Shown: in pieces, positions 41,306 through 51,614 of the stretch
Layout: each line of letters begins with the position of its first letter
How positions within the stretch are numbered: position 1 is the stretch's first letter
The notes under the pieces: generated by a model
What the model saw: the letters and a program-made list of their open reading frames with translations, nothing else
Database searches by the model: none
What the model was told of the DNA's origin: nothing
Position numbers and translations under genes: made by a program
DNA from: Methylobacterium sp. 17Sr1-1
GTDB lineage: Bacteria; Pseudomonadota; Alphaproteobacteria; Rhizobiales; Beijerinckiaceae
Direction of reading: 5' to 3'
Length of the DNA stretch: 64,000 bases
Assembly (NCBI RefSeq): GCF_003173775.1
Contig: NZ_CP029552.1
Location: forward strand, 707,001 to 771,000

Positions 41306-44300
41306 TCAGGCCCGCTTCGCCTCGCTCGCGTCGACGACCTCGCCGTAGATCACCGCCAGTTCCTGCGCCTGCTGGTCCGCGGTCCGGATCGGGGCGGTGT
41401 AGTCGGGCGAGCGCAGGTGGACGCCTGGATTCGCGTCGATGAACCGGAGCGCGGCGAGCAGGCCGGACTCGTCCGCGACGTCGACGACGTAGCCGTTGCG
41501 GCCCTCGACGACGCAATCGGCCACCGCGCCGCGGTTGGAGGCGACGACCCAGCAGCCGGAGGCGATCGCCTCCCGGGTGACGAGGCCGTAGCTCTCCGGC
41601 CAGACCGACGGCGCCAGCAGCACGTCGATATGGGCGTAGAGGCCGCCGACATTCGACTGCGAGAACTTGCCCCGGATCTCGACCGGCACGTTGCCCCACA
41701 ATTCCTCCACCCGCTCGCTCGGGTGCATGGCGTGGTCGATCAGCAGCAGGCTGAGATTCTCGAACGTCTCGTTGATGATCACGTTGCGGATCAGGCCGTA
41801 GCCCTTGTGGTCGGCCAGGCCGCCGATGAAGCCGAGACGGACCCGGCCGGTCGGGCTCGCGATCCGGTGGACCTCCGGCAGGCGCGACACGCCGTTCTCG
41901 ACCACCTCGACCCGGTCGAGGCCGACGCCGCGGCACAGCGCGCCGAAGGGCTGCGACACGGTCAGCACGCGCGCGGCGCCCTTGATGCAGCGCAGCAGCG
42001 TCCGCGCCCGGGCGTAGCCGTCGCTCACGTAGGTGTCGAGGGAGGCCTTGCCGCTGAAGTCGTAGGTCTCCACCACCCGGTTGCCGTTGGTCAGGAACTG
42101 GTGCGGCGAGATCCACCAGCCGTCATGCATCGTGATCAGGTAGGGGATGCGGCGCCGGATCGCGGCGGTGACGCAAGTCGTGGTCAGCCGCTGGATGCAG
42201 TGGAAGTGGATCAGGTCCGGATCGATCCTGTCGAGGACGCCATCGAAAACGCGCCCCATCTCCGGATCCTCGACCAGGGTGTCGATGTCGGGGTGGTTGG
42301 CGGCGGTGATGCAGAACACCCGCACGCCGTCGCGCACGTACCAGTCGAGGGCGTAGGGGACCGGCCCGCCTTCCAGGGTGCAGATCACGTCGATCTGCCA
42401 CTCGGGTCCCAGGATCGCACGCAGCGAGCGGACGTTGTCATGAACGACCCGGGTCGCGCCGCCGATGGCTTGCGGCGGGTAGAACACGTTGACGATGACG
42501 AGCTTCTTGCGCGGGGCGAGCTGTCGGGAGGTCGACCGGTCGATGATCCGGCGGAGCTCACCGGCCTGCCGCTCCAGCCCGTAGCGCTCGAGCACGACCT
42601 GCCGCGCCGCCTCGCCGATCCGCCGACGCTCGTCGGACGAACGAACCAGGCGGTCGAGGGCGGCGTGGAACGCCGCGCTCGACTCGCACAGGAAGCCGGT
42701 CTCGCCCTCGACGATCACCTCGCGATGCGTCTGCGTGCCGCTGACCACGGACGGGATGCCGAACATCGCGGCCTCCATCCACTTGATCTCGCTCTTGCAG
42801 TCGTTGAACACGTCCGGCACCAGCACCGAGATGTTGATGTCGGCCTCGCGCAGCAGGTCCCAGTACGACGCGACGTTGGCGATCGGCCGCGAGGCGATGA
42901 TGTACTCCGCCCAGGGGCGCAGCAGCGCCGAGAGCGTGATGTCGCCGATCACCACGACGCGGATCCGGTCGCGATGAGTCTCGAACAGCCGCGCCAGGGC
43001 CGGCTCGATCAACTGCTCGAAGTCGAGCTTGTGAGCCTTGGTTCCGGAGCCGTAGAAGATCGTGACGACGTCGCCGGTCTTCGTCGCCTCTCCCTGCATG
43101 CTGACGAGGTGCGCGCTGTGGAGCGCGTTCGGCTGGTGGAAGACCGTCCCGGTCCTGACCTGGCCTTCGAGGTGCCGGGCGAGGCTCGGCGTCGAGACCA
43201 TGCCGTAATCGCACAAGGACGCGGCCTCGGCGAACAGGCTGACGCCGCAGGCCATCGACGCGTGCTGACGGGCATCGATCAGCCCGGCATAGCTTTCGAG
43301 CGCCGGCGGAAAATATGTCGGCTCGAATACCAGGTCGTCGATGTCGTAGATTGTCACGATGCCGAGATCGGCAGTCTTGTCGATGGCGTCGATCACGTTC
43401 GGGAACGCCGGTACCCGGTAGAAGATCGTATAGTCGATCTCCGCGAGGTCGGCCATGTAGGCGTCATGGTCTTTGGTATAGTTGTAGACCTTGACGTCGT
43501 AGCCGGCCGCCGCGAGCTGCTCGGCACGCTGGTCGACCCGGTAGAAGCGGCACTGCGCCAGATCGCAATTGGCGTAGACGGCGACGCGGCGGACCCGGTC
43601 CGCATTGACCACCGGCCGTTCCCCGTCCCGGGCCAGGCGCTGCGCCGCCTCGGTCACCCGCGCGCGCGCCTCATCGTAGCCGACCTCGAGGGCGACGTCC
43701 GCGCTCTTCTCCCAGACGTCGTAGAAGTACTTTTCCCGGGTCTCGCGCAAGCGGCGGCGCAGGCCGACATCGCCCGGGTACTTGGCCACGCCCGCCGCCA
43801 TGGCGCGCTCGGCGGCCTCCGGCTCGCCGAGATCCAGGAGGCCTTGGGACAGGTGGATGAAGGTCCACTCGTTGCTGCGGTCGAGGGCGACGATCTGCCG
43901 GCGCAGGCTGGTGGCCAGGGCCAGGTTGCCGCCGCGATGGATCAGGTCCGCCCGGTGATTGAGGCCGCGCGGATGGTCGGGGACGCGGGCCAGGGCGCGG
44001 GCATAGAGCTCGGCGGCCTCGACGCTCCTGCCCTGCCTGGCGCGGGCATCCGCGACGTCGACGAAGAAGGCGGCGACCGCCGGCTCGCTCACGTCGAGCG
44101 TCCAGGCGAGCAGGTCGTCGACGGCCTGGCTCGGCTTCGTCCCTCGTCCGATCTGCGATGCGACCGCCGCATCGACCGCGCGCGGCAGCTTCGCCCCGTG
44201 GGTCTGGTGCACGAGGACCCGCAGGTTCGGGTAGAGCGGGTCGTCCGCCCCGCTCCTCAGCCAGCGTGCGTAGCGCTCCTGCCGCGACGAGGATGTCGGG

Positions 44301-45157
44301 CCGTCGCTCTCGTACTCGGCACGAAAGAAGTCGTCGTCGAACGCGCCCCGGCGCGAGATGTCGAACTGCTCGCGCTGACCGACCTCGCAGAAATGCCGGA
44401 TGCATTCGGCGCGGTTGAAGAATTTTTCGCTGTGCCTGAGCTGCTGGTAGCGGTAGAGATCGTGATCGAAATACTCAGAAAAATATGGAATATTGATGTC
44501 GTGGAATTTTGCGATCTCGTCTTCGTTGAAATAGATCGGCTGGTCGTCCGGCGGCTGCAGCCGCTGCTTGACGGCGACGACCACCTCCTCGACGCTCATG
44601 CCCCGTGGGACGGTCACGCCGTACAATTGCGCGATGAAGTCCGGATCGTAGAAGAGGGGGAGGTAGCTGCGCTTCTCGGCGCGTCCGTGCTCGGCATAGT
44701 GCTTCAGGCGCCCGGCATTCGACGCGATCACGCGCGCGATGTCGGGATTGCAGACGACGTAGCTCGCGAGGTTGAAGCTTGGCGGGAGGCCGGTTCCGGC
44801 GTGGCCGGCCGCCGGGTGCGACGCGCCGCCATAGGGCCGCCTCTCCGCCCGGCCATGCTCGATGTAGTGGAGGGCGCCTTGAAAATCCCATGTGATCGCG
44901 GCCGCGACGTCCGGGTTCAGCCGGAGATACGTCGCGACGTCGAAATCGCTCGGCAGCTTGTCGCGGGCCGTCGCCGCCGCGTGCGCGCTCGCTTCGTTCG
45001 GGAAGCGCCCTTCGCTCCGCCCGAATTCTTCCCAGTGCTTGACGACCGCATCATCCGTCGCATCGGCGAGGTCCGCGTAGTAGGCGCGATAAAAATCGAC
45101 GTCGAGCGCCGCATCCTTCTTGCGTGCGATGCGTCGCGCCAGCTTGAAGAAACTCAT
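41306..45157 (-). CDS. Tandem glycosyltransferase with TPR and N-terminal repeats
   Basis: This 1283-residue cytoplasmic protein has, in order, several copies of a short repeat with core NPDV...HY.EHGRAE.R (about residues 20-290), a TPR-like helical region (about 360-470), a first GT-B domain of the GT1/GT4 type (YDIDDLVFEPTYF near 613; SEIKWMEAAMFG near 795) and a second one (YLITMHDGWWISPHQ near 1007; PESYGLVTREAIASG near 1182). It probably builds a surface polysaccharide or protein-linked glycan. MSFFKLARR at ATG 45157 has GAGGGG 5 bases upstream and is preferred over upstream ATGs at 45178 and 45190. A patch near 44400-44530 is unusually A+T rich. Confidence 0.9.
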   Translation of the reverse strand: MSFFKLARRIARKKDAALDVDFYRAYYADLADATDDAVVKHWEEFGRSEGRFPNEASAHAAATARDKLPSDFDVATYLRLNPDVAAAITWDFQGALHYIEHGRAERRPYGGASHPAAGHAGTGLPPSFNLASYVVCNPDIARVIASNAGRLKHYAEHGRAEKRSYLPLFYDPDFIAQLYGVTVPRGMSVEEVVVAVKQRLQPPDDQPIYFNEDEIAKFHDINIPYFSEYFDHDLYRYQQLRHSEKFFNRAECIRHFCEVGQREQFDISRRGAFDDDFFRAEYESDGPTSSSRQERYARWLRSGADDPLYPNLRVLVHQTHGAKLPRAVDAAVASQIGRGTKPSQAVDDLLAWTLDVSEPAVAAFFVDVADARARQGRSVEAAELYARALARVPDHPRGLNHRADLIHRGGNLALATSLRRQIVALDRSNEWTFIHLSQGLLDLGEPEAAERAMAAGVAKYPGDVGLRRRLRETREKYFYDVWEKSADVALEVGYDEARARVTEAAQRLARDGERPVVNADRVRRVAVYANCDLAQCRFYRVDQRAEQLAAAGYDVKVYNYTKDHDAYMADLAEIDYTIFYRVPAFPNVIDAIDKTADLGIVTIYDIDDLVFEPTYFPPALESYAGLIDARQHASMACGVSLFAEAASLCDYGMVSTPSLARHLEGQVRTGTVFHQPNALHSAHLVSMQGEATKTGDVVTIFYGSGTKAHKLDFEQLIEPALARLFETHRDRIRVVVIGDITLSALLRPWAEYIIASRPIANVASYWDLLREADINISVLVPDVFNDCKSEIKWMEAAMFGIPSVVSGTQTHREVIVEGETGFLCESSAAFHAALDRLVRSSDERRRIGEAARQVVLERYGLERQAGELRRIIDRSTSRQLAPRKKLVIVNVFYPPQAIGGATRVVHDNVRSLRAILGPEWQIDVICTLEGGPVPYALDWYVRDGVRVFCITAANHPDIDTLVEDPEMGRVFDGVLDRIDPDLIHFHCIQRLTTTCVTAAIRRRIPYLITMHDGWWISPHQFLTNGNRVVETYDFSGKASLDTYVSDGYARARTLLRCIKGAARVLTVSQPFGALCRGVGLDRVEVVENGVSRLPEVHRIASPTGRVRLGFIGGLADHKGYGLIRNVIINETFENLSLLLIDHAMHPSERVEELWGNVPVEIRGKFSQSNVGGLYAHIDVLLAPSVWPESYGLVTREAIASGCWVVASNRGAVADCVVEGRNGYVVDVADESGLLAALRFIDANPGVHLRSPDYTAPIRTADQQAQELAVIYGEVVDASEAKRA

Positions 45158-45499
45158 CTCGCCCCTCGCCGTTGCCATTCGTCTTGCCAAATACTTGTGT
45201 ATGGTACTTCGTCATGAGATCGTGATCTGAAATTGCCGCAGTACTGATCTCGGATCGCGCTTGCTTCGCGGGACGTAATATTTCTCTCGCATTGCAAAAA
45301 TCGAGAGGATGTATGAGCCGGGCGACGACGATGTCAAGCTGCCCCCGGTGCGCGGTCCCGGCCGGCCGGAACCGCCGCCGACGGTCGAACCGGGCGTATC
45401 CGGCCCGGGTTGCCCCGGCGGCTCCCGGTCGGCGCGCGAGATCATTTCCCGTCCGGCACAAAATGCTCTAGAGCGACGCCGCCATCTCACGTAGCCACC
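45158..45499. other. Divergent intergenic region between the glycosyltransferase and aroC
   Basis: The first 110 bases are A+T rich (AAATACTTGTGTATGG, TAATATTTCTCTCG) and probably hold the glycosyltransferase promoter. A 61-residue Pro-rich frame (45309-45494) has no proper ribosome-binding site. The sequence AAATGCTCTAGAGC at 45461-45474 resembles an end of the family A repeat. Confidence 0.4.
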
Positions 45500-46615
45500 A
45501 TGTCGCACAACAGCTTCGGCCACCTCTTCCGCGTCACCACCTTCGGCGAGAGCCACGGCCCGGCCCTCGGCTGCGTCGTCGACGGCTGCCCCCCGCTGAT
45601 CCCGCTCGAGGCGGCGGAGATCCAGGCGGAGCTCGACCGCCGCCGGCCGGGCCAGTCGCGTTTCACCACCCAGCGCCAGGAGCCCGACCAGGTCCGCATC
45701 CTCTCGGGCGTGTTCGCGGACGAGCGCACGGACGGGCGTCAGCTCACCACCGGCACGCCGATTGCGCTGATGATCGAGAACGTCGATCAGCGCTCCAAGG
45801 ATTATTCGGAGATCCGCGACAGCTACCGGCCCGGCCACGCCGACTACGCCTACGATGCCAAGTACGGCATCCGCGACTATCGCGGCGGCGGCCGCTCCTC
45901 GGCCCGCGAGACCGCCGCCCGGGTGGCGGCGGGGGCCGTCGCCCGCAAGGTGCTGCCCGGGGTGACGATCCGCGGCGCCCTGGTCCAGATCGGCCCGCAC
46001 GCGATCGACCGCGCCCGCTTCGACTGGGACGAGGTGAACAACAACCCGTTCTTCTGCCCCGACGCGACCGCCGCGGCGCAGTGGGCGGAGTATCTCGACG
46101 GCATCCGCAAGGCCGGCTCCTCGGTCGGCGCGGTGATCGAAGTGGTGGCCGAGGGCGTGCCGGTCGGCCTCGGCGCTCCTGTCTACGGCAAGCTCGACGC
46201 GGACCTCGCCGCCGCCATGATGTCGATCAACGCCGTCAAGGGCGTCGAGATCGGCGACGGCTTCGCCGCGGCCGCCTTGCGCGGCGAGGAGAATGCCGAC
46301 GAGATGCGGCCCGGCAACGACGGCCGCCCGATCTTCCTCGCCAACCATGCCGGGGGCGTGCTCGGCGGCATCTCCACCGGCCAGCCGCTGGTCTGCCGCT
46401 TCGCCGTCAAGCCGACCTCCTCGATCCTGACCCCGCGGGCGAGCGTCAGCCGCGACAACCGCCCGGTCGACGTGCTGACCAAGGGCCGCCACGACCCCTG
46501 CGTCGGCATCCGGGCGGTGCCGGTGGGCGAGGCGATGATGGCCTGCGTGCTGGCCGACCACTGGCTGCGCCACCGCGGACAGGTCGGGGAGGGGGATGGT
46601 TTTCAGCCCGGGTGA
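45500..46615 (+). CDS. aroC: Chorismate synthase
   Basis: AroC converts 5-enolpyruvylshikimate-3-phosphate to chorismate using reduced FMN, the last common step of aromatic amino acid synthesis. The 371-residue length is standard. Signatures are visible: GESHGPALG near residue 16, [14 protein letters not shown] near 110, [19 protein letters not shown] near 130, and [13 protein letters not shown] near 330. The start is ATG 45500 ([16 protein letters not shown]). It is 53 bases before the RibB-type fusion gene on the same strand. Confidence 0.97.
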
Positions 46616-46627
46616 ACCTCGCCATCC

Positions 46628-46644
46628 TTTCAGTTTGACTGAAA
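46628..46644. promoter_or_regulatory. Perfect palindrome TTTCAGT-TTG-ACTGAAA between aroC and ribB
   Basis: The 7-bp arms (46628-46634 and 46638-46644) are perfectly inverted around TTG. The site is 24 bases upstream of the GTG start of the HTH-RibB fusion. Because the fusion protein carries a Cro-like DNA-binding domain, a self-operator is an attractive inference, not a demonstrated one. Confidence 0.5.
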
Positions 46645-46668
46645 CGGCCGTCAGGCTATGACGGGGGC

Positions 46669-47985
46669 GTGAAACTCGGCGACTGGCTCCGACAGCAAGG
46701 CGTGACCCGCCTCGACTTCGCGCGGCGCTGCGGGCTCTCGCCGGCGGCGGTGACGGGGTTGTGCAACAATCCCGAGCCCTGGCTCTCGCGGGAGACGGCG
46801 GCCGCCGTCGCGCGGGAGACCGGCGGCGCCGTCACCCCCAACGACTTCTTGGGGAAAGAGCTTCTGGGGCTCGCGCCCCCGGGACAGGAGATGCCCGTGA
46901 CCCACGCGTCCATCATCGAGGCCATCGACGCCTATGCTCGCGGCGAGATCGTGATCGTCACCGACGACGACGACCGCGAGAACGAGGGCGATCTCATCAT
47001 CGCCGCCTCGCTCTGCACGCCCGAGAAGATGGCGTTCATCATCCGCAACACCTGCGGCATCGTCTGCGCGCCGATCACCGCGGCGGAGGCCAAGCGCCTG
47101 CGCCTCGAGCCGATGGTCGCCTCGAACGACGCGCCCCTCGGCACCGCCTTCACGGTCACGGTCGACGTCAAGCACGGGCTCACCACCGGCATCTCGGCCG
47201 AGCAGCGCTGCAACACCGTGCGGGCGCTCGCCAACGGCAACATGGGCGCCACCGACTTCGTGCGGCCCGGCCACGTCTTCCCGCTGATCGCCAAGGACGG
47301 CGGCGTGCTGATGCGCTCCGGCCATACGGAGGCGGCCGTCGACCTCTGCCGGCTGGCGAAGCTCCCGCCCGTCGGCGTGATCTGCGAGCTCGCCAACGAC
47401 GACGGCACGGTGATGAAGGGGCCGCAGATCACCGCCTTCGCCGAGAAGCACAATCTCAAGCAGATCTCGGTCGCCGAGCTGATCTCCTACCGCCAGGCCC
47501 GCGAGAAGTTGGTCGAGCGGGTCGGCACCTTCCCGGTCAAGACCGAGTGGGGCGACCTGACCGGCTACGCCTACACCACGCCGTTCGAGCCGATGCAGCA
47601 ATTCGCCTTCGTGCACGGCCGCATCGGCGAGGGCCGCGACGTGCTGGTGCGGCTGCACCGCTCGAACGTGGTGGCGGACGTGATCGAGGGCGGCCGCACC
47701 ATCGAGGCGGTGATGCGCCGCTTCGCGCAGGAGGGCCGCGGCGTGCTGGTCTACCTGCGCGACGGCACCGCCGGCGTGCCGCTGTCGCAGCTGCCCGACG
47801 GGGCCGGCGAGGACGGGGCCGAGGCGGCCCGCGTGCGCCAGTGGCGCGAGGTGGGCTTAGGGGCCCAGATCCTGCGCGACCTCGGCGTCGTCTCGATCCG
47901 CAACATCTCGAGCGCGGCGCGCTCCTATGTCGGCCTGTCGGGCTTCGGCATCGAGATCGTCGCCGACGAGCCGCCGGAGGGGTAG
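46669..47985 (+). CDS. ribB: 3,4-dihydroxy-2-butanone-4-phosphate synthase with N-terminal HTH and RibA-like tail
   Basis: The 438-residue frame starts at GTG 46669. Residues 1-65 form a Cro/YdaS-like helix-turn-helix (MKLGDWLRQQGVTRLDFARR, LSPAAVTGLCN, ETGGAVTPNDFL). Residues about 77-280 are the DHBP synthase domain (DDDDRENEGDLIIAA, GHTEAAVDL) that makes a riboflavin precursor from ribulose 5-phosphate. Residues about 290-435 resemble GTP cyclohydrolase II but lack its zinc-binding cysteines, so this part is probably inactive (RibBX type). A second start, GTG 46897 (or ATG 46891), has CAGGAG close upstream and would give the enzyme without the HTH; both forms may be made. Confidence 0.92.
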   Translation: MKLGDWLRQQGVTRLDFARRCGLSPAAVTGLCNNPEPWLSRETAAAVARETGGAVTPNDFLGKELLGLAPPGQEMPVTHASIIEAIDAYARGEIVIVTDDDDRENEGDLIIAASLCTPEKMAFIIRNTCGIVCAPITAAEAKRLRLEPMVASNDAPLGTAFTVTVDVKHGLTTGISAEQRCNTVRALANGNMGATDFVRPGHVFPLIAKDGGVLMRSGHTEAAVDLCRLAKLPPVGVICELANDDGTVMKGPQITAFAEKHNLKQISVAELISYRQAREKLVERVGTFPVKTEWGDLTGYAYTTPFEPMQQFAFVHGRIGEGRDVLVRLHRSNVVADVIEGGRTIEAVMRRFAQEGRGVLVYLRDGTAGVPLSQLPDGAGEDGAEAARVRQWREVGLGAQILRDLGVVSIRNISSAARSYVGLSGFGIEIVADEPPEG

Positions 47986-48038
47986 GGCGCCTCGTCGGTG
48001 CCTGCTCACCATCCCCAACGGTGGTGAAACTCTTCGGG

Positions 48039-48177
48039 TCATCCGGGGGCCGCGAAAGCGGAACCCGGGATGCATAACCGCTGAGGTTTCAGGATGAAGC
48101 GGGACGCGTACCGCGTGGTTCCGCATCGTCGGCGGTCATGAATCCCGGGTTTCCGGCTGCGCCGGGCCCCGGGATGA
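48039..48177. repeat. Family C long palindromic repeat, copy 2
   Basis: GTCATCCGGGGG at the left and CCCCGGGATGAC at the right are inverted ends. CATAACCGC and CATGAATCCCGGG in the interior match the copy at 37236. It lies in the convergent gap between ribB and the deacetylase gene, as the other copy lies between mucR and rimM. Confidence 0.8.
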
Positions 48178-48229
48178 CGCGGAGGTATAGTGGCAAGCCG
48201 GCCCGAATCCACGCCGGTCGAACGCGCCC

Positions 48230-49159
48230 TCACCGCCCCATCAGCGTCTCGACATGCGCGGCGACCGACTTCGACAGCCCGATCAGGTCGTAGCCGCCCT
48301 CGAGCAGCGACACCACCCGGCCGCCGCAGCGGCGGTCGGCGATGCTCATCACCTCCCGGGTCGCCCAGGCGAAATCGGCCTCGGTGAGCTTCAGGTTGGC
48401 CAGCGGATCGCGCCAATGCGCATCGAACCCGGCCGAGATCACGATCAAGTCGGGCCGGAAAGCGTCGAGGCGCGGGAGCACGCCGTGGGCGAAGGCCTCG
48501 CGGAAGGTGTCGCCGTCGTCGCCGGCATGCAGCGGCACGTTGACGATGGTGTCGTGCTCGCCGCGCTCTGAGGCCGCGCCGGTGCCGGGAAACAGCGGCA
48601 TCTGGTGGGTCGAGAGGTACATCACGCTGGCATCGTCCCAGAAGATGTCCTGCGAGCCGTTGCCGTGATGGACGTCCCAATCGACCAGCGCCACCCGGGC
48701 GGCGCCGTGGTGCTGCCGCGCGTGGCGCGCCGCCACCGCGGCGGTGTTGAACAGGCAGAAGCCCATGGCCCGCTCGCGCTCGGCGTGGTGGCCGGGCGGG
48801 CGCATCGCCGCGAAGGCGTTGGCGACGTGGCCGCCCATCACCTCGTCGACGGCCCGGACCGCCGCACCCAGCGCCCGGCGGGCGGCCTCGAGCGAGCCCG
48901 GCGACATCACCGTATCGGAATCGAGGCCGATGAGCCCCTCGTCCGGCGCGGCGGCCGCGATCGCCGCGACGTAGTTCTCCGGATGCGCCAGGCCCGCCAC
49001 CGCGAGGTCGGCCAGGGGCGCCTGCTCGCGCACCAGGGCGGCGAAGCGCTCGTCCTCCAGCACCCGCTCGATCACCCGGATGCGGTCGGCCCGCTCGGGA
49101 TGGCCCGGCGGCGTGTCGTGGTCGAGGGAGGCCGGATGGCAGAGGTACAGCGTCGTCAT
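48230..49159 (-). CDS. Histone deacetylase family protein (acetylpolyamine/acetoin utilisation type)
   Basis: The 309-residue zinc hydrolase shows all active-site motifs: RPPGHHAERERAMGFCLFN (near residue 121, His pair), DWDVHHGNGSQDIFW (near 160, zinc Asp/His) and SAGFDAHWRDPL (near 245, zinc Asp), plus the C-terminal EGGYDL. Bacterial members deacetylate acetylpolyamines or lysine residues; the substrate cannot be read here. The start is ATG 49159 (MTTLYLCHPASLDHD). Confidence 0.93.
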   Translation of the reverse strand: MTTLYLCHPASLDHDTPPGHPERADRIRVIERVLEDERFAALVREQAPLADLAVAGLAHPENYVAAIAAAAPDEGLIGLDSDTVMSPGSLEAARRALGAAVRAVDEVMGGHVANAFAAMRPPGHHAERERAMGFCLFNTAAVAARHARQHHGAARVALVDWDVHHGNGSQDIFWDDASVMYLSTHQMPLFPGTGAASERGEHDTIVNVPLHAGDDGDTFREAFAHGVLPRLDAFRPDLIVISAGFDAHWRDPLANLKLTEADFAWATREVMSIADRRCGGRVVSLLEGGYDLIGLSKSVAAHVETLMGR

Positions 49160-49369
49160 CGTGCCCGCTTCAAGCGTTCCCGTCGGCCGGTGTCATGACC
49201 GGCCGTCCCCGCCCGCACCGTGGCAGGGCCATGGCCCGGACGCAACACAGGCGCGGCAACTCGCGCGGGAGCGTCATCCCCCGCTTCGCGCACCAACAGC
49301 CACGCTTTACGCTTCACGAGACGACTGATTCGCGGGCTTGGGCCCGCCGCCTTGCAAGGTTCCGCCCCG

Positions 49370-49984
49370 ATGCGCCGCCCCCACCCCGTCCTCGCCCTCG
49401 TTCTGACGGGGGCCGTCTCAATGGGGGCCGTCCTGGCGCTGCCGGGCTGCATGTACCGCGCCACCCCCGATCCCGAATTGTCGGCCCGGGACAAGGAGTG
49501 GATGGCGATGGTGCCGGAGCCCGAGATCGATCGGCGCTTCGCCCGCTACATGATCGAGGACCCGACCGGCGAAGCGCCGGGCACCATCGTGGTCGAGACA
49601 AAGGAACGCCAGCTCTACTACGTCCTGCCCGACCGCAAGGCGATCCGCTACGGCGTCACCGTCGGCGACGAGGCCTATGGCTGGACCGGCACGGCGCGGA
49701 TGTTCCGCAAGGCCGCCTGGCCGGATTGGCATCCGCCGGCCGAGATGATCAAGCGCTGGCCCCACGTCCACGCGATGCAGGGCGGGCCCGCCAACCCCCT
49801 CGGTGCCCGCGCCCTCTACCTGGCGGACGGCACCGGCAAGGACACGCTCTACCGCATCCACGGCACCAACGAGCCCGAGCGGATCGGTCAGGCGGCCTCG
49901 TCCGGCTGCATCCGGATGCGCAACATCGACGTGGTCGACCTGTACAACCGGGTCGGCGCGGACGCGAACGTGATCGTGCGGTAG
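49370..49984 (+). CDS. L,D-transpeptidase lipoprotein (YkuD)
   Basis: The 204-residue protein has a lipoprotein signal with lipobox ALPGC (Cys near residue 24), so it is anchored to a membrane on the periplasmic side. The YkuD domain covers about residues 65-204, with HGTNEPERIG (near 163) and the catalytic Cys in SSGCIRMRN (near 179). It forms 3-3 murein cross-links or attaches proteins to peptidoglycan. I start at ATG 49370 (MRRPHPVLALVLTG), where the signal peptide begins. Its stop abuts a family A repeat. Confidence 0.9.
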   Translation: MRRPHPVLALVLTGAVSMGAVLALPGCMYRATPDPELSARDKEWMAMVPEPEIDRRFARYMIEDPTGEAPGTIVVETKERQLYYVLPDRKAIRYGVTVGDEAYGWTGTARMFRKAAWPDWHPPAEMIKRWPHVHAMQGGPANPLGARALYLADGTGKDTLYRIHGTNEPERIGQAASSGCIRMRNIDVVDLYNRVGADANVIVR

Positions 49985-50087
49985 AGCGTTTTCCGACGAA
50001 GTGGATACAGGTTCGTCGAAGAAAATGCGGCAAGATCAAAGACCTAGAGAGCTTCGCGATTGCTACGTGATCGTGAAGTGCTCTAGA
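49982..50087. repeat. Family A palindromic repeat copy 3
   Basis: The copy has TAGAGC (49982-49987) and GCTCTA (50080-50085) as inverted ends, the block TTTTCCGACGAAGTGGAT, GGCAAGATC, and the GCTTCGCGATTG/CGATCGTGAAG arm pair. It matches 4589-4693 most closely. The first bases overlap the stop codon of the L,D-transpeptidase. Confidence 0.75.
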
Positions 50088-50695: not shown

Positions 50696-51100
50696 TTAGA
50701 GCCAATTCTCGACGATCAGCCCACGAACACGACGAAATTCCGCTTCGTTGGCCGTGACGACCGGGACGCCAAGCGCGAGCCCCTGCGCGGCGATCAGGAG
50801 ATCGTTGGGGCCGATCAATCGGCCGGCAGCCTCCAGCTCGGCTCGCAGGCGACCATACTCGGCATCGGCCGGAGATTCGAACGGCACGATCTCAATTCCT
50901 TGCAGCACGGCTTCGACCTGCTGGAGCAGCCGCGTGGATCCACGCTTCGCGCACCCATATCGAAGTTCGGCGACCGAAATAATGCTCGTCGCGATGCCGT
51001 GGCTGCCGATTTCGCTGATCCGCCGGGCCACGCTGCCTGATGGGTTGCGGACGAGATCGGACACGACGTTGGTGTCGAGGAGGAAGCGCAGCGCGCTCAC
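50696..51100 (-). CDS. vapC: VapC-type PIN-domain toxin
   Basis: The 134-residue protein is a PIN-domain ribonuclease. Acidic active-site residues are visible in LLDTNVVSDLV (Asp near 9), SVAELRYG (Glu near 45), GPNDLLIAA (Asp near 98) and the TANEAEF segment near 116. The start is GTG 51100, overlapping the antitoxin stop by 4 nt (GTGA). VapC toxins cut tRNA or rRNA when freed from VapB. Confidence 0.92.
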   Translation of the reverse strand: MSALRFLLDTNVVSDLVRNPSGSVARRISEIGSHGIATSIISVAELRYGCAKRGSTRLLQQVEAVLQGIEIVPFESPADAEYGRLRAELEAAGRLIGPNDLLIAAQGLALGVPVVTANEAEFRRVRGLIVENWL

Positions 51101-51354
51101 GACGGATCTTCCTCTAGAGGCGGCAGCATCTCATCGAAGTCGGGGAAATCCTCCTCGATCGGCTCCAGCGTTGCCAGGATCGCCAGCAGATCCCTCTTGC
51201 CGACTGGCTCCAGAATGAGGCGGTCGCCGTCGCGGCTGATGCGCACCCGATCGCCGGGGAGGGCGAACTCGGCCGGGATGCGTACTGCCTGGCTGCGGTT
51301 GTTGCGAAACAACTTCACCTCTCGCGGCTGCGGACTCGGGAGCGAGTTTGCCAT
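51097..51354 (-). CDS. vapB: VapB-type AbrB/SpoVT antitoxin
   Basis: The 85-residue antitoxin has the swapped-hairpin AbrB domain (REVKLFRNNRSQAVRIPAEF near residue 11, then GDRVRISRDGDRLILEPV) and an acidic tail that should wrap around the toxin (EEDFPDFDEMLPPLEED). I start at ATG 51354 (MANSLPSPQPREVK) since a palindrome that looks like its operator lies just upstream. The pair is transcribed VapB first. Confidence 0.92.
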   Translation of the reverse strand: MANSLPSPQPREVKLFRNNRSQAVRIPAEFALPGDRVRISRDGDRLILEPVGKRDLLAILATLEPIEEDFPDFDEMLPPLEEDPS

Positions 51355-51372
51355 GCTGATACCTCGGATGGG

Positions 51373-51387
51373 ATATGCCAAGCATAT
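51373..51387. promoter_or_regulatory. Palindromic operator candidate for vapBC
   Basis: ATATGC (51373-51378) and GCATAT (51382-51387) are perfect arms around CAA, about 18 bases upstream of the vapB start. AbrB-type antitoxins repress their own operon by binding such sites, so this is a likely autoregulatory operator. Confidence 0.6.
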
Positions 51388-51614
51388 ACCTATCTTGGCG
51401 CCGTCTCCAGGGCTTTCCCTCACCGTCACGTCATTGTCGTCCGTCGATATCTCGTGGCCCTCGCAACCCTTTAGCAACGCCGTCCCGTTGCCAGGCTTTA
51501 ACCTGAACAGGGATTCAGATCCCGCCGTTAACCTGTCGAAGGCCTCCCGTCCCGCATAGTCCTCCTCACACAGGGACAAGCACCGGCACAACAAAGGCCG
51601 GGGAGGACAGACAG

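Follow-up and report, generated by a model that had tools for sequence, protein, structure and literature searches.

In archaea, the genes for vitamin B2 are regulated by RbkR, in which a helix-turn-helix (HTH) domain is fused to a riboflavin kinase. In bacteria, riboflavin genes are mainly under the control of the FMN riboswitch, as stated in the accessible parts of a 2026 review (PMC13028884). RibBX proteins, known from Shewanella, Aeromonas, Acinetobacter (structure 6mnz) and Bradyrhizobium ORS285, combine RibB, i.e. DHBP synthase, with a GCHII-like X domain that has lost its zinc ligands, and in Shewanella the X domain is reported to regulate RibB activity by a mechanism that the accessible sections of the source call unknown (PMC10012899). 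In Wolbachia, i.e. among the Alphaproteobacteria, the Xre-type HTH proteins wBmxR1 and wBmxR2 bind the promoter of ribA, which encodes a RibBA (PMC3518464, accessible sections). Finally, trigger enzymes such as NadR, BirA and PutA are metabolic enzymes that carry a DNA-binding domain and act as transcription factors (PMC8249747, accessible sections). Here we describe HTH-RibBX, which, as judged from comparative genomics, is a real and conserved fusion of enzyme and transcription factor, very probably with an autoregulatory function. Neither a fusion of this kind nor its operator is described in the mainly open-access literature that we searched, which comprised the accessible parts of PMC13028884, PMC9478397, PMC10012899, PMC5343134, PMC8249747 and PMC3518464, among others.

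The hth-ribBX gene is located on the forward strand of the window, i.e. the whole 64-kb stretch of DNA analysed, at 46669..47985; it starts with GTG and encodes 438 amino acids, and the fusion recurs in relatives. Pfam recognizes a DHBP_synthase domain at residues 84-274 (46918..47490, forward strand; E 1.3e-80), followed by a GTP_cyclohydro2 domain at residues 284-432 (47518..47964, forward strand; E 4.1e-26), the former assignment being backed by invariant residues, the latter by alignment and Foldseek. R103, E104, D108, H219 and E240 show no variation among 75 aligned fusions, that of the window being one of them, and are displaced, as we take it, by 66 positions throughout relative to the catalytic residues of E. 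coli RibB; since they match these catalytic positions, the RibB part of HTH-RibBX should be enzymatically active. It is also the only RibB match in the 6.54-Mb single-contig genome, in which two further matches to the GCHII domain are found elsewhere. The X domain can be aligned with GCHII and contains no counterpart of the motif cysteines of E. coli GCHII, which are presumably the zinc ligands. The protein scores below the cut-offs of the models for bifunctional RibBA, the zinc cysteines of an active GCHII being absent, and Pfam and NCBIfam scans of it revealed no CTP-dependent riboflavin kinase domain as in RbkR. Foldseek matches are 4i14 and the RibBX structure 6mnz (TM 0.81 for 6mnz, by target length). 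RibB with a zinc-less RibA-like tail is the RibBX architecture, already known and not new in itself. The original prediction, made from the letters of the window, of an HTH joined to DHBP synthase and a RibA-like tail without zinc cysteines agrees with Pfam, models and alignment.

The N-terminal head (residues 1-61; 46669..46851, forward strand) is assigned to the lambda-repressor-type HTH domains on the basis of AF2 models, fold matches and a Pfam HTH_3 hit at residues 7-52 that is just below the 23-bit cut-off (21.1 bits, E 3.3e-4); in one type B relative (see below) HTH_3 scores above the cut-off. The models show five helices with a block pLDDT of about 85-97, and the best folds found by Foldseek are the CapH NTD, LexA-like, ClgR, SinR-DNA and HigA, all with E above 0.001, a sequence search of the HTH against the PDB having returned chance matches only. 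The third helix of the model is the putative recognition helix, PAAVTGLCN (residues 25-33; 46741..46767, forward strand), which is changed in the type B family, whose palindrome also differs. Residues 63-77 form a linker with a pLDDT under 50. The HTH codons are under purifying selection, with Ka/Ks values of 0.04-0.28 in 10 comparisons (RibB: 0.11-0.18).

A perfect 17-bp palindrome had been claimed 24 bp upstream of the GTG and is present at 46628..46644. This putative proximal operator, TTTCAGTTTGACTGAAA, is conserved in relatives; it is the sole match with up to three mismatches in the 64-kb window (0.21 expected; 19 of 100 shuffles have one) and the sole perfect site in the 6.54-Mb genome, where four others have two mismatches, none of them near ribH (C1:787637). 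At 46601..46617, overlapping the stop codon of aroC, there is a putative degenerate distal operator, TTTCAGCCCGGGTGAAC, which has four mismatches and stands in the register where many relatives carry their best site. Another palindrome, TTTCCGT-N3-ACGGAAA, occurs in two copies 9.6 kb apart in the same genome (C1:977126 and 986717). Known RNA elements were considered as well: positions 44000-50000 contain no Rfam match, neither to the FMN riboswitch nor to any other known RNA, and a search of the entire genome did not find the riboswitch either, in line with the earlier statement that none is visible here; the control for this search gave a match in 7 of 14 named genomes.

The inverted repeat stands directly behind aroC in the window (reading frame 45410..46615, forward strand; name read from the sequence), and it might thus work as RNA, i.e. 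as an aroC terminator or a leader hairpin, instead of as an operator. We regard this as the most improbable of the explanations, as transcription from the promoter described below would begin at the start codon and hence leave the repeat out of the mRNA, and as the region has no match in Rfam. Moreover, of 85 fusion rows, two of which are duplicates, no more than 45 have an aroC match upstream, and four loci without such a match (L084-L087) carry perfect sites.

The operator was followed through 83 distinct fusions (70 with a type A head, 12 with type B and 1 with an unrelated HTH) and a sample of 72 HTH-less ribBX loci, 44 of which come from the genus of the window. L098 and L095 had been dropped as duplicates of L001 and L031, and L070 for having no RibB; a locus at a contig edge (G344) was left out, and L035, with its other HTH, was counted among the 73 non-type loci. 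The N-terminal extension of RibBX at L035 (genome G099) reads as an XRE-type HTH of another kind and may represent a third fusion that arose independently. Under one criterion for all, a palindrome of type A or type B stands at 78 of the 82 loci with this HTH and at 0 of the 73 other ribBX loci. Phylogenetically independent pairs are few: of 7, an average of 5.1 pointed in the same direction and none in the opposite one, and the sign test, with a median p of 0.0625, stays above 0.05. At the 70 type A loci, the best match to TTTCAGT-N3-ACTGAAA within 100 bp upstream is perfect in 32 and has one mismatch in 25, the remainder having two (nine loci), three (two), four (one) or five (one). At HTH-less loci the best type A match in 340 bp has four to eight mismatches (four in two loci, five in three, six or more in 67). 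The type B loci carry TATTAGC-N3-GCTAATA, perfect in 7 of 12 and with one, two and four mismatches in two, one and two loci, respectively. Both checks proposed with the original prediction, a search for the HTH-RibB architecture in related genomes and an alignment of upstream regions, thus came out in its favour: fusion and TTTCAGT-N3-ACTGAAA recur together in many genera, and the site is missing at the HTH-less loci examined and altered where the recognition helix is altered, which supports the interpretation given there.

Many factors bind palindromes, and another regulator might bind the site, the HTH of RibBX being a structural leftover. The co-occurrence of site and HTH, the change of the site with the recognition helix, the single perfect copy in most of the fusion genomes (see below) and the purifying selection on the HTH codons all argue against such a regulator, which we consider very improbable.

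For a broader view, the 70 type A loci were pooled with 80 named loci (the best 80 of 211, retrieved by a search with HTH sequences), and these 150 were thinned to a non-redundant set of 93, window included. The named loci have 29 perfect sites, 29 with one mismatch, seven with two, five with three, two with four, six with five and two with six; ten of them lack the string DRENEGD and are still RibB, nine reading DREGEGD and one DREDEGD. In the 100 bp next to the start, the 93 loci show zero to six or more mismatches in 35, 32, 11, 5, 2, 6 and 2 cases, respectively, i.e. 67 have a site with at most one mismatch, whereas 100 dinucleotide shuffles gave none at zero or one and on average 0.04 loci at two and 0.41 at three. 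In sites with up to three mismatches, a selection that inflates the arms, arm columns are mostly 0.8-1.0 conserved as compared to about 0.3-0.6 in most flanks. In a profile that scores complementarity alone, without a motif, the eight most palindromic offsets fall without exception at -50..-53 and -22..-25, i.e. there are two palindrome registers separated by about 28 bp. The sites contain eight symmetric double changes, six of them still complementary, as compared to 3.7 expected, a modest excess.

Ten of the 93 loci have four or more mismatches within 100 bp, and nine of these have different recognition helices, with TQ replacing TA or TG. Other palindromes with six of seven positions paired are found at four poor-match loci (L083, L227, L235, L250); at the other six (L092, L228, L232, L233, L242, L255) the best alternative pairs only five of seven, and L242, which has the usual helix, carries a perfect site just past 100 bp. 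Five loci from metagenome-assembled genomes with an ITQLCR helix (L227, L228, L231, L232, L235) are without TTTCAGT and share TTTTATC...TAAAA in the same 17-bp register and at the same distance, perhaps representing a third operator specificity.

Perfect sites were also counted throughout 37 fusion genomes, hand-picked, many of them for a site already known to be perfect, mismatched sites having been searched in the genome of the window. Exactly one perfect site exists in 27 genomes, none in nine and three in one (G392), and all 27 single sites as well as one of those in G392 map to hth-ribBX promoters. This mapping suggests that the control is probably private to the hth-ribBX gene. A wider regulon was considered and rejected, the genome of the window having a single perfect site and G392 alone among the 37 having more than one. 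An extra perfect site of G392 (L186, C8:567212) is located among ORFs of phage-like look.

The fusion is widespread and patchy. Of 119 genomes searched, that of the window included, 70 others belong to its genus, and 10 of these 70 have a full-length match; in the other 60 the match begins at residue 16 or later, i.e. they lack the HTH or most of it. Partial matches with stop codons had prompted a search for HTH remnants, yet tblastn gave no HTH match at the HTH-less Methylobacterium loci L014, L015, L022, L056 and L059. Across the order (397 genomes), the fusion occurs in at least eight families (f1, f20, f23, f28, f35, f36, f42 and f50), and a protein search with residues 1-70 returned 100 matches, 99 of which have a RibB domain. 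The best 80 of 211 named loci include Methylobacterium, Bosea, Phreatobacter, Stappia, Pannonibacter, Roseibium, Pseudovibrio, Ancylobacter, Azorhizobium, Labrys, Prosthecomicrobium, Zavarzinia and others, the closest HTH matches of the window among them being Methylobacterium species. The type B HTH, 30-40% identical to type A in the 10 loci where BLAST aligned, was seen in family f23 only (12 loci), which includes Aestuariivirga, judging by proteins among the matches listed. On the tree of the RibBX core the type A head needs eight changes, at least six of them forced by well-supported branches, which indicates that the head has repeatedly been lost, or moved.

The spacing to aroC is informative in this respect. 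At 61 of the 72 HTH-less loci aroC is the upstream neighbour, and the distance from its stop to the codon matching residue 80 is 14-83 bp in 52, an overlap in one and 142-190 bp in eight; in the fusion rows with aroC upstream, it is 258 bp or more in 43. For the two others, L113 and L120, 143 and 146 bp were measured; aroC would then end within the HTH codons, so that its end is probably misplaced there. The spacing suggests that head, promoter and operators are gained and lost together. Elsewhere in the window, small ORFs next to each other at 50696-51594 (reverse strand) were read by eye as a VapC PIN toxin with a VapB antitoxin.

The promoter itself is tightly coupled to the start codon. 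In the window, a -35 box, TTGACT (46635..46640, forward strand), lies inside the proximal operator and a -10 box, TATGAC (46657..46662, forward strand), ends 6 nt before the GTG. TTG is found at -34..-37 in 84 of the 93 loci, in 58 of which its first letter stands exactly at -35 from the start codon, and TA is found at -12 in 55 of the 93, the medians over all positions being 1 for TTG and 2 for TA; SD-like letters precede the HTH start in only 3 of the 93 loci. As the spacing of both boxes is fixed relative to the start codon, +1 is expected at the start codon itself and the mRNA is expected to be leaderless. A proximal site with up to four mismatches is present in 60 of the 93 loci and encloses the -35 TTG in 56 of these 60; a distal site is present in 56 loci, and 38 have both.

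The main rival to repression is activation: HTH-RibBX would contact RNA polymerase and thereby switch on its own promoter, chiefly through the distal site, which is centred near -60, where activators can also work. In many genomes, e.g. in Bosea, the best site is indeed the distal one, ending near -51, which is close to the position of a class I activator. In addition, the one case in the papers covered in which Xre-type regulators act on a riboflavin gene is activation, namely of a ribA reporter by the Wolbachia regulators (PMC3518464, accessible sections). Against activation stand the proximal sites, nearly all of which lie over the -35 TTG, and loci such as L031, L089-L091 and L104, in which only the proximal site is strong. 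At all type B loci but one (L144; 11 of 12), too, the site ends 7-9 bp ahead of the ATG, i.e. where the -10 box would lie; for the ten with at most two mismatches the distance is 7-8 bp. On balance we consider activation unlikely.

The linker contains a second potential start. The original prediction had pointed to a start at 46897 with a good ribosome-binding site, and AGGAG-N6-GTG is present at 46886..46899 (forward strand), an internal SD that recurs in relatives. An in-frame ATG, GTG or TTG with an SD of dG <= -5 kcal/mol is found in the linker of 83 of 87 loci, six of the 93 having been left out as their RibB motif was unmatched; synonymous resampling gives 46.75 expected with the protein fixed, so the excess derives in part from the residues themselves. 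The median SD is -7.4 for the linker start as compared to 0.4 for the HTH start, and 23 of the 87 loci reach P <= 0.05 on their own (window locus: P 0.52). Because an SD-bearing linker start recurs across loci, an HTH-free RibBX isoform is plausible. Translation from 46891/46897 alone, named beforehand as a refuting case, is unlikely given the selection on the HTH codons and a promoter fixed to the HTH start codon; the internal start is perhaps also used.

Taken together, the fusion, the operator, its absence without the HTH, its change with the recognition helix and its overlap with the promoter all emerge from comparison, and from them we infer DNA binding, a repressing and not activating action and the geometry of the dimer. 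We thus consider it highly likely that HTH-RibBX is a trigger enzyme, i.e. a DHBP synthase that doubles as DNA-binding autorepressor of its own gene. RibB works as a homodimer. Two HTH heads, joined via this homodimer, would bind the 17-bp palindrome, the flexible linkers allowing them to reach half-sites 10 bp, i.e. one helical turn, apart. One or two such sites would be occupied at the gene's own leaderless promoter; as the proximal site covers the -35 box, binding there would shut off transcription and thereby cap the amount of enzyme that the cell makes. The distal site may contribute cooperativity or else serve as an activation site, and the linker start may additionally yield head-less RibBX.

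Candidate ligands for such a switch are a flavin, sensed via the X domain, and ribulose-5-phosphate, sensed via RibB, or there may be none. In the latter case autorepression would be constitutive and a homeostat of enzyme amount only, which is quite possible, if somewhat short of probable: no finding here indicates a particular ligand, and the site is usually the sole perfect one in the genome. A sensing role of the X domain is nevertheless plausible, as the domain is retained throughout the aligned fusions and is reported to regulate RibB activity in Shewanella (PMC10012899, accessible sections). HTH-RibBX may thus suggest a job for an as yet unexplained domain.

A second system suggests that coenzyme enzymes of these bacteria have gained a DNA-binding head on more than one occasion. 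In one protein (P0101), encoded by a metagenome-assembled genome, an HTH of the VTPNDF type, as in hth-ribBX, is fused to CoaBC. In another genome (G105), Bradyrhizobium-like by our reading, CoaBC bears a FitA-like RHH instead (PF22513, E 3.9e-14). In a search of family f36, 77 of 80 genomes match, 41 of them, by our count, from residue 1 or 2, two of these 41 with an internal stop codon. The RHH-CoaBC loci (L294-L323 in family f36, and L193:1399-1461) combine the FitA-like RHH with an upstream palindrome, TGATNGCANTGCNATCA; an RHH start was found in 29 of 30 CoaBC loci (L312, without one, was left out), and in 27 of these 29 the palindrome, whose motif was derived from these very loci, occurs with up to two mismatches no more than 100 bp from that start, often with a second copy 22-23 bp away. 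Our literature search found no report of an RHH-CoaBC fusion. Tentatively, we speculate that HTH-RibBX is a flavin-responsive autorepressor, in which the X domain or the RibB site senses the state of the pathway and thereby governs how the HTH dimer binds tandem operators at a leaderless promoter, the internal start supplying HTH-free enzyme, and that, together with RHH-CoaBC, it represents a general enzyme-repressor control of coenzyme synthesis replacing riboswitches. We hold this to be possible, yet rather doubtful as a whole; if the flavin-responsive reading is true, one gene encodes both thermostat and heater.

The FMN riboswitch serves the same task, i.e. matching riboflavin synthesis to need, but it is RNA-based, whereas HTH-RibBX and its operator would constitute a protein-based control with a predicted target site defined to the base. 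RbkR differs in its enzyme, a kinase and not a DHBP synthase, and belongs to another domain of life, and for HTH-RibBX its own gene is apparently the only target. For RibBX, no HTH head is reported in the accessible sections of PMC10012899, and the HTH-less ribBX loci examined here are without the operator. The loci thus form a natural experiment: another recognition helix comes with another palindrome, and no head with no palindrome. wBmxR1 and wBmxR2, unlike the fused HTH-RibBX, are separate proteins, do not bind their own promoters and activate, and the ribA operon of Wolbachia includes secretion genes (PMC3518464, accessible sections). None of the trigger enzymes named in the accessible sections of PMC8249747 is related to riboflavin. 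Like them, HTH-RibBX is an enzyme fused to a DNA-binding domain, for which comparative genomics points to a specific target site, and it probably autoregulates, usually with one perfect site per genome.
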